A stretch of 10,015 nt of DNA from Planctomycetota bacterium (GTDB taxonomy: Bacteria; Planctomycetota; B129-G9). The stretch is taken from NCBI GenBank assembly GCA_030622295.1, contig JAUXGI010000019.1, positions 1 through 10,015 on the forward strand, read 5' to 3'. Both the position numbers and the translations under genes were made by a program. The notes below the pieces were generated by a model, which saw nothing but the letters and a program-made list of their open reading frames with translations, ran no database searches and was not told the origin of the DNA. This document shows positions 3,963-5,618 of this stretch, piece after piece (the first letter of the stretch is position 1; the number at the start of each line of letters is the position of its first letter).

Positions 3963-4613
3963 TTATGGGGCCGACCGCTCAAGCACGACTATGCGCATCT
4001 TCGGGGGCAGATCTCGACCGGTTATCTCCAGTTCCTTCAACCTGGTTACTTCCTGCTGCCCGGCGAGGAACTTGTCCGCGCCCTCGACGCCCAGCGACAG
4101 CCCTGGTATCTTGTAATGCATCGGGATTACGATGCGCGGGCCAATCTGGTCGACCACCTTCCGGGCACCCGCGGCGTCCAGCGTGTAGGTGCCTCCCACG
4201 GGAACCATGAACACGTCCAATCCCTTCAATCCTTCCACCATCTCCGGGGTCAGCAGATGTCCCAGGTCCCCGGCATGACATACCGATATACTGCCGCCGT
4301 CATCGACCGCGCTTATCACGAACATGATGTTCGGTCCGCGCTGTGCGCCTTTGTGTTCGTCATGGTACGTGGCGACTCCGCGGATCTTGACCTTTCCGTA
4401 ATCAAGGCCTTCGGGGGAATTTACGACTTTGGGTGTGCCGTGGATTTCGCTCACGGCGGCATGGTCGAAATGACCGTGGCTCGTTGTCACTATATCGGCA
4501 CTCACAGGCGGCAACTTCAGGCCAATTGAGGAATCATAAGGGTCTGTCGCTATTTTTACGCCGTCGGCGGTAGTGATGAGAAAACACGCATGCCCAAGCC
4601 ATTGAATCTTCAT
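3963..4613 (-). CDS. UPF0173/YtkL-like metal-dependent hydrolase (metallo-beta-lactamase fold)
   Basis: The 216-residue protein matches the short UPF0173-type branch of the metallo-beta-lactamase superfamily, whose members are about this size. The opening MKIQWLGHACFLI and ATDPY are typical. The metal-binding HxHxDH motif is intact as SHGHFDH (His46, His48, Asp50, His51), followed by CHAGDLGH (His113, Asp116, His119), the family VGGTYTLDAAGA stretch (139-150) and IPMHY with His166. The active site should therefore bind two metal ions. The physiological substrate of this branch is generally not established, so I give no specific reaction. There is no signal peptide, so it should be cytoplasmic. 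The ATG has a strong Shine-Dalgarno sequence (GGGAGG, eight bases upstream). It now lies 208 nt after surE, but only 34 nt after once the inserted repeat element is removed, which suggests the two genes were once tightly linked. Confidence 0.93.
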   Translation of the reverse strand: MKIQWLGHACFLITTADGVKIATDPYDSSIGLKLPPVSADIVTTSHGHFDHAAVSEIHGTPKVVNSPEGLDYGKVKIRGVATYHDEHKGAQRGPNIMFVISAVDDGGSISVCHAGDLGHLLTPEMVEGLKGLDVFMVPVGGTYTLDAAGARKVVDQIGPRIVIPMHYKIPGLSLGVEGADKFLAGQQEVTRLKELEITGRDLPPKMRIVVLERSAP

Positions 4614-4654
4614 GGTACTGTCCTCCCAGGATATGTGGTGATACCTCCTATTTA

Positions 4655-4822
4655 GTTCCTGTTGCGGAAAGTCCCTTTTTGACCGCCCTTGGGAAAATGC
4701 GCGGCGAGGGGGTCAGACGCTGAGGAGGAGCCCGCCTCGGGCGGGCGACGGGAGAGGGTCTGACTCCCCGAGCCGACAGATTTAGATGCCTGATTCAAAA
4801 ATCCACTTTCCGCAACAGGAAC
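4655..4822. mobile_element. 168-bp MITE with 18-bp terminal inverted repeats and a TATTTA target duplication
   Basis: The ends are perfect 18-bp inverted repeats: GTTCCTGTTGCGGAAAGT at 4655-4672 and its reverse complement at 4805-4822. Six bases, TATTTA, are repeated directly just outside (4649-4654 and 4823-4828), as expected of a target-site duplication. The repeat is seven bases, CTATTTA, if the ambiguous edge base is counted. Internally, after three mismatches, TTTTTG (4676-4681) pairs with CAAAAA (4796-4801). A second inverted pair, GGGGGTCAGAC (4708-4718) against GTCTGACTCCCC (4758-4769), encloses a 7-bp GC hairpin. There is no coding capacity, so it would depend on a transposase elsewhere. 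The last base of the element forms part of the surE stop codon. On the transcript the whole element can fold into one long interrupted hairpin between surE and the downstream hydrolase gene. Confidence 0.85.
4730..4746. repeat. Central REP-like hairpin of the MITE
   Basis: GCCCGCC (4730-4736) and GGCGGGC (4740-4746) form a perfect 7-bp stem with a TCG loop at the middle of the element. No T-run follows on either strand, so it is not a standard terminator. It is the apex of the nested palindrome. Confidence 0.7.
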
Positions 4823-5595
4823 TATTTACGTGTTTTCGGGGAAAAGTCCAGCGTATTCAACTTCTTCAGAACCTCGTGGTCCGTAAGGTCGAGTTTCATG
4901 GGGGCGACCGTCACGTAGCCTTGCCGTATAAGCAGCGTGTCATCCCCTTCGGTCTCCTCCAGAGGCGTCAGTCCCCCCGTAATCCAGTACACCCTGTTGC
5001 CGCGTGGGTCTACATGTCTCTGGAAGTTCTCTTCAAATCCGCTGCAGTTCATTTGTGCCGGGCGCACCCCGACCAGTTTCTCCGGCGGCAGGTTCGGAAT
5101 GTTGATGTTCAGGAAATTCCAGCCCGTCTCCTTGCGGCATTCCAGGATTTCGGGAAGGATGGCCCTCATAATCCTGCCCACGTCCGGGAATGAAACGTCT
5201 TCGTACGAATCCGCCGAAATCGCCATCGAAGGCACCTTGAACACCGTCCCCTCCAGCGCCGCGGCCACCGTACCAGAGTAAAACGCGTTTATCCCCAGAT
5301 TCGAACCGCGGTTTATCCCAGACACCAGCAGGTCCACGGGCTCCTTCAATATCTCGCAGAAACCCAGTTTCACGCAATCGGCCGGTGTGCCGCTCACCGC
5401 GTATCCGAACAACTCGCCCCCGCGTATTACCCTGCGAAAGCAAATCGGATGTCCCAGAGTAATAGAATGGCCCACCGCGCTGCGCTCGTTATCCGGCGCA
5501 ATAACTATCACCTCGCCGAACTCTCTCATGACCTCACGCAGCATCGCAAGCCCGTCGGCGTCGATTCCGTCATCGTTCGTAACAAAAATGCGCAT
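4822..5595 (-). CDS. surE: 5'/3'-nucleotidase SurE
   Basis: SurE is a metal-dependent, cytoplasmic nucleoside monophosphate phosphatase linked to stationary-phase survival and nucleotide salvage. With the start chosen here the protein is 257 residues, normal for the family, and begins with the diagnostic MRIFVTNDDGIDADG. The four metal ligands fall at their standard numbering: Asp8 and Asp9 (NDDG), Ser39 (ERSAVGHS) and Asn95 (SGINRGSN). SGTPADCV at 68-75 and the NAFYSGTVAAALEG segment near 103-116 are also typical. The frame stays open 32 codons further upstream to an ATG at 5691. I reject that start because the family begins at MRIF, GAGG lies at 5605-5602 just before the chosen ATG, and a near-consensus promoter lies inside the extension. 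The stop codon is made jointly by host sequence and the first base of the inserted MITE. Confidence 0.95.
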   Translation of the reverse strand: MRIFVTNDDGIDADGLAMLREVMREFGEVIVIAPDNERSAVGHSITLGHPICFRRVIRGGELFGYAVSGTPADCVKLGFCEILKEPVDLLVSGINRGSNLGINAFYSGTVAAALEGTVFKVPSMAISADSYEDVSFPDVGRIMRAILPEILECRKETGWNFLNINIPNLPPEKLVGVRPAQMNCSGFEENFQRHVDPRGNRVYWITGGLTPLEETEGDDTLLIRQGYVTVAPMKLDLTDHEVLKKLNTLDFSPKTRK

Positions 5596-5618
5596 CTTCG
5601 GCCTCGCAAAAAGACACA

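Follow-up and report, generated by a model that had tools for sequence, protein, structure and literature searches.

A MITE at the surE stop codon of an uncultured Planctomycetota genome and its probable link to ISNCY-like insertion sequences

Several families of small bacterial repeats share features with the element described here. The RUP element of Streptococcus pneumoniae, a non-autonomous DNA transposon (MITE) associated with IS630-Spn1, has ends that match those of the full insertion sequence (IS) and lies at TA-containing targets, according to PMC2229807. The element at surE resembles RUP in both respects, differing in its transposase family, in its 6-bp target duplication and in its hosts, which are Planctomycetota and a few others. 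MITEAba12 is likewise a small MITE defined by the ends that it shares with an IS, ISAba12, with duplications in 40% of its copies; it differs from the surE element in having a 9-bp duplication without base pattern and in being spread within Moraxellaceae (PMC6382973). A table in the same paper gives for ISNov2 the ends GGCTTTGTTGCGCAAAT, similar in look to those of the surE element. PMC3733652 describes the GTAG REPs, small palindromic repeats, also present in Planctomycetes, whose ends reportedly often supply a TAG stop to the flanking genes; those repeats are linked to RAYT, whereas the surE element is a MITE related to an IS of the DDE type. Finally, the ISNCY-type IS (NF033593; ISRle10, ISRtr6) belong to the same transposase family as the IS that matches our element, and are distinguished from it by their end sequences (GTGCCCGTCC..., GTTCGCGG...) and by duplications of 6 to 8 bp. 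No name or description of the present MITE family appeared in the literature covered, which included PMC8147514 and left ISfinder and most subscription papers outside its scope, so that the family may already bear a name. A particular twist of the family, shown for the present host and suggested elsewhere, is the combination of shared ends with host-specific palindromic insides.

The window, by which we mean the whole stretch of 10,015 nucleotides that was analysed, contains the element in the spacer between surE and a hydrolase gene. The features of this region are as follows.

3963-4613, minus strand: downstream gene, metal-dependent hydrolase (PF13483; the name UPF0173 was given by the sequence-only reading)
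4649-4654, plus strand: left target copy TATTTA, 6-bp duplication
4655-4822: element body of 168 bp, between both TATTTA copies
4655-4672, plus strand: left 18-bp terminal inverted repeat GTTCCTGTTGCGGAAAGT, 25/28 when extended to 4682
4704-4774, no strand: GC-rich palindrome forming the core, bounded by inverted ends of its own (CGAGGGGGTCAGACG / GTCTGACTCCCCGAG)
4805-4822, minus strand: right 18-bp terminal inverted repeat, 25/28 when extended to 4795
4822-4824, minus strand: stop codon TAG of surE, with TA from the target copy and G from the element
4823-4828, plus strand: right target copy TATTTA, 6-bp duplication
4822-5598, minus strand: upstream gene surE (PF01975, by Pfam)

The analysis of the 168-bp element demonstrates an inverted match of 18/18 between its terminal repeats (25/28 when extended), with TATTTA on both sides, just as the sequence-only reading had described. 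No listed open reading frame (ORF) of at least 60 aa is contained in it, one starting within the element and running out. It is thus a short non-coding sequence with inverted ends, a target duplication, multiple copies and ends shared with an IS, and the proposal that it is a MITE has been borne out by the directly observed ends, the TATTTA duplication, further copies at different sites and, in another genome, an IS assembled from contigs that carries the identical 18 bp. Very probably, the element in the surE-hydrolase spacer is a non-autonomous DNA transposon belonging to a family with the ends GTTYCTGTTGCGGAAA, on which an ISNCY-like transposase acts in trans and which uses a 6-bp palindromic target.

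The matching IS was located in a Pirellulales MAG (JAFGPV, G059), where seven contigs run out within a single repeat. Its first 18 bp match the end motif exactly, and it shows one inner sequence beside seven different flanks, six of them TANNTA. The same inner sequence occurs on contig C44 together with an ORF of at least 445 residues that runs off the contig, and the outermost five end bases of this copy deviate from the end motif. The opposite end, again with all 18 bp exact, lies on contig L130, whose frame shares 10/10 residues with the end of the ORF and then stops. Pieced together from several contigs, these parts would form a multicopy IS with identical 18-bp ends; since C44, the ORF-bearing copy, has an altered end, no single contig shows the whole intact IS. 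The full-length transposon with these ends that the first reading proposed to look for is represented by this IS of G059, on separate contigs. The transposase, truncated by the contig end, matches the NCBIfam model ISNCY_1 (NF033593) at 2e-93 with 313.5 bits (cut-off 325) and IS5_1 at 4e-43.

Among four further ISNCY copies, three (in ISRle10, the planctomycete plasmid pPL62-2 and a Thermodesulfovibrionia MAG) carry inverted repeats of other sequence, which can be aligned to a G start beside the TA-bounded duplications TAGTCTA, TAGTACTA and TAATTA, respectively; ISRtr6 shows the initial G at a single side and has no duplication. The G059 IS, like these copies, combines a TA-bounded palindromic target with ends whose first base is G. 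A protein search for the IS gave two matches in 20 genomes, namely in G059 itself and in G071, whose match is distant and has different ends, and matches in G016, G019 and G038 among 59 relatives. The family model matched in 11/20 genomes, once above the cut-off. The G019 transposase (L143) is 38% identical to the G059 transposase (P0001). The end that accompanies it, GTTTCTGTTGCAAATGCC (GTTTCTGTTGC...), is a related one and lies next to GACTA, approximately 225 bases past the transposase. At the remaining family-model loci the ends come at best to 3-4 mismatches of 16. The end at L254 was rejected as an IS end and assigned to a nearby MITE, the transposase piece there having no match to P0001. 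In the host genome itself (G000), an incomplete MAG of 1.85 Mb in 412 contigs and 73.6% complete, neither the protein search nor the family model revealed an ISNCY transposase, and in G001, of the host's genus, one weak model match (40 bits) lacks these ends. The mobilising enzyme of the host may be missing from the assembly, may have been lost or may be a different one. Small repeats of uncultured Planctomycetota can in this way be linked to a transposase family, together with a target rule.

In order to follow the ends across genomes we searched the one-genome-per-species data with the pattern GTTYCTGTTGCGGAAAGT, which occurs in 70 stretches; 51 are labelled Planctomycetota or a subgroup, several copies being found in some MAGs, and among those with other labels are two stretches of a Nitrospirae MAG as well as one Thermodesulfovibrionia and one FCPU426 MAG. 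Thirteen isolated exact matches in other groups, where a scan for pairs gave none, look like chance, and these loci were excluded from the set of 72 paired elements, from the ORF count at 98 element ends, from the earlier-loci background and from the 60-nt comparison presented below. Two further pattern matches (L135, L137) were rejected because they are located inside long ORFs. The inner end motif was present as an exact pair, at the searched spacing, in 3/392 evenly drawn Planctomycetota genomes, host included, and in 11/21 genomes preselected for the ends or for near kinship; the former figure indicates that the family is patchy. Viral contigs gave no relative in 20 pattern stretches by the protein scan, and no additional paired element in 5 stretches by the end pattern. 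Over 144 ends the information content is 0.8-2.0 bits at positions 1-16, 0.58 at position 17 and below 0.3 from position 18, values that are partly built in where the elements were selected (positions 6-15, and for many all 18), while for the later loci positions 1-5 and 16-17 lay outside the selection and the drop after the selected stretch is not built in.

The duplication of the target is a property of the family. Exact 6-bp duplications flank 30/72 paired elements, against a mean of 2.09 and a maximum of 9 in 20,000 shuffles of the flanks, and a first, overlapping set gave 12/33 against a mean of 0.94 and a maximum of 7, again in 20,000 shuffles. The other 42/72 have imperfect duplications, 15 of them with less than 4/6 matches. 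Identity between the flanks is 0.79 at a length of n=6 and 0.22-0.33 at n=3-5 and 7-10; the value of 0.73 at n=2 is due to the shared TA. An IS630/mariner-type MITE, with its 2-bp TA duplication, was considered and rejected, the duplication here being of 6 bp. The 43 targets with at least 5/6 matches give the palindromic motif cTANNTAg, in which the outer pairs are mainly T and A, the middle is mostly A/C and then T/G, and C/G is favoured just outside.

Two arrangements depart from the common pattern. A copy in the Nitrospirae MAG (L082, 22-175) lies within the palindrome TGCTATTTTAGCA and has a 7-bp duplication, TATTTTA; and at L072, L087, L095, L114 and L204 (VGYV/G065) elements stand adjacent, 6 bases apart, like tandem insertions sharing a target copy.

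From the ends, targets and related IS we infer the type of the transposase and the geometry of the cut. An ISNCY/IS5-like DDE transposase, provided by an IS with the same ends, would recognise both ends in trans and move the element; a 6-bp staggered cut would be made at a palindromic target near cTA(A/C)(T/G)TAg, where the element would be joined, and repair of the staggered cut would duplicate the 6 bp. At surE the target would have been TAAATA(G) on the minus strand, at the end of the gene. Since TA closes the target and G opens the element, the TAG would be formed again and the length of SurE would be unchanged.

The sequence around the stop codon agrees with this scheme. On the minus strand SurE ends in ...DFSPKTRK, and its stop consists of the host TA followed by the G at 4822, with which the element begins in this reading direction. 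The in-silico removal of the element and one TATTTA yields the empty site CGT AAA TAG GAGG, with 34 nt between surE and the hydrolase ATG instead of the present 208 nt. Both the exact conservation of the stop codon and the 34-nt gap, which had been read from the window alone, were reproduced. A comparable case is found elsewhere in the host MAG (L036, 1501-1617), where a gene that we take from its sequence to be obg-like ends in a TAG whose last base is the G of an element from this family.

The earlier suggestion went further and proposed that ends starting with G after a TA target may be selected for insertion at stops, that is, that both features evolved to make such insertions harmless. 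We consider this unlikely, even though part of the counts speaks for it. Among 98 element ends, the ends of ORFs (at least 120 codons) fall 17 times at TA|G and 11 times within target positions 1-3, with no more than two at any other position. Reconstruction of empty sites left 55 of the 72 pairs (15 having less than 4/6 duplication matches and 2 lying near contig ends), with 11 at stop registers, 30 between genes and 14 inside an ORF; the corresponding numbers are 2, 64 and 180 for background TANNTA sites and 9, 94 and 197 for background sites in the earlier loci. In the non-coding part, 11/41 sites at stops thus compare with 2/66 (p = 4e-4), with 9/103 for the earlier-loci background (p = 0.007) and with 11/169 for the two backgrounds pooled, which share some loci (p = 6e-4). 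At distances of up to 60 nt from the end of an ORF, the TA|G register considered by itself accounts for 25/69 elements vs 11/64 background sites (p = 0.02). All gene calls in these analyses were ORF-based, with no trained gene finder.

The same 60-nt comparison loses its contrast when both registers are counted, with 34/69 elements vs 25/64 background TANNTA sites at ORFs of at least 150 codons (p = 0.30; p = 0.09 at 100 codons or more and p = 0.17 at 200 or more), the other register alone, at target positions 1-3, giving 9 vs 14 (p = 0.25). With perfect TANNTA targets the stops amount to 5/24 vs 2/66 (p = 0.01) or vs 9/103 (p = 0.14), and with YTANNTAR targets to 1/10 vs 0/10. The G beside TA is also the start of three other ISNCY copies, and is hence a feature of the transposase family. 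Insertions that truncated a gene in that frame would furthermore be expected to raise TA|G, because the element supplies the G and genes cut short add to this register. The target cTANNTAg contains stop-like trinucleotides, so that near gene ends, where elements are strongly enriched (69/176 ends vs 64/927 background sites, coding sites included), the motif itself accounts for most of the overlap with stops, and background sites with the motif fall in the two stop registers nearly as often as elements do; the claim of selection was thus not borne out. The neat rebuilding of the stop is mostly a consequence of a stop-like target and a low-harm position, to which a small additional preference for stops may contribute. 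This calls for caution wherever clean stop-codon insertions are read as adaptation, as target choice can mimic tailoring.

The host MAG was searched for further copies. Ends with up to 3 mismatches number 28, compared with 5 for a reversed control pattern, and with up to 1 mismatch to a Y-containing pattern 20, compared with 0, an excess that chance does not explain. A second full copy, in the opposite orientation and 86% identical over positions 5-168, lies on contig C182 between TAATTA and TATTTA, i.e. at another target; shorter relatives on C5 and C398 have kept the core together with the ends, and the version on C31 seems to have undergone a deletion. Further copies at other target sites, which the first reading had expected, are thus present as the further ends and the full copy on C182; the other paired copies of this genome have 3 to 5 of 6 duplication matches. 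At least 44 matches to the element were found in the host, most of them spanning just the middle (about positions 48-120); as 40/241 first-look candidates were scored, the copy number of the core is a lower bound. Only one (L006) of 28 further core loci (L003-L030) lies no more than 130 bp from an exact end, and 3/28 show ends at 4-5 mismatches, possibly by chance. Since the core mostly occurs elsewhere in this genome without the ends of the element, it represents a palindromic repeat of high copy number that is independent of the element surrounding it. The structure that had been described for the element is thus correct, with this separate repeat having gone unnoticed; the core was probably nested in the element before the composite multiplied in the host.

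The core also bears on a different origin, in which the whole sequence would be a REP/REPIN palindrome moved by a RAYT (Y1) transposase and the 18-bp ends merely part of the palindrome. The core is indeed a GC-rich inverted pair with many copies, and three Y1 (RAYT-like) transposase genes are present in the host MAG. In the three 3.3-kb Y1 loci, however, the core motif gave one partial match in one of them, approximately 1.4 kb from the gene, and the two others are without it; the clear 6-bp duplications contrast with movement of the RAYT/IS200 type and with the GTAG REPs, neither of which is known to make a target duplication. We consider this origin very improbable for the whole element, whereas it may apply to the core alone.

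At one of the core loci (L013) a different set of inverted ends flanks the core, with TTTCTGTCGG to its left and ATTTCTGTCGG / CCGACAGAAAT to its right; this may be a second MITE family built around that core.

Returning to the MITE at surE, its insertion probably split a compact order of surE and the hydrolase gene, as judged from gene order in the same bin. On contig C63 (locus L155) surE (54-57% identical), the hydrolase (59%) and lysA (61%) follow in a row, the surE stop overlaps the hydrolase start as ATGA, and no such element sequence lies between them. This overlap suggests that a tight surE-hydrolase operon was split by the element. The C63 cluster may be a paralogous operon or contamination from another organism in the bin. 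The operon split that had been put forward consequently gains from a homologous adjacent pair, but no close relative without the element was found: no surE was detected in G001 and G002, and when G001-G004 and G041 were searched for the hydrolase, G041 yielded two matches (50% and 32%) and G001 a single weak match, with surE at none of the three loci.

The minus-strand fold of the element is predicted to be very stable (-87.8 kcal/mol, z = -7.1), so that surE and the hydrolase gene would now be separated by a long hairpin. The reading that such a fold would favour, a conserved and non-mobile structured RNA or attenuator at this position, is the least credible of all, given copies of the element at other loci of the host, the target duplications, an inside that is unconserved between genomes, no Rfam match in the window and the absence of such sequence from the C63 pair. 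For the inserted element an effect of the predicted hairpin on the surE-hydrolase mRNA is plausible.

Conservation between genomes is limited to the ends and does not extend to the insides. Exact interior 20-mers away from the ends were found at 18 places in the host, at loci largely fetched for that repeat, and at 3 places only in 11 other genomes, of which small stretches were sampled. Host-specific palindromic insides on shared ends are thus established for the host MAG, and elsewhere only suggested. A wider proposal, which we offer as a tentative and rather doubtful one, is that a 16-18-bp ISNCY-like end frame spread over Planctomycetota and some other phyla while its inside was repeatedly replaced by host palindromic repeats, payloads that would be set harmlessly on gene ends. 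If true, one transposase family would keep many host-made payloads mobile.

As a minor observation, the insides of the elements in G061, G065, G069, G072 and G075 look like inverted hairpin pairs that differ in each genome on the same ends, an example from G072 being GTCATTCCTGCGAAAGCAGGAATCC with its partner.
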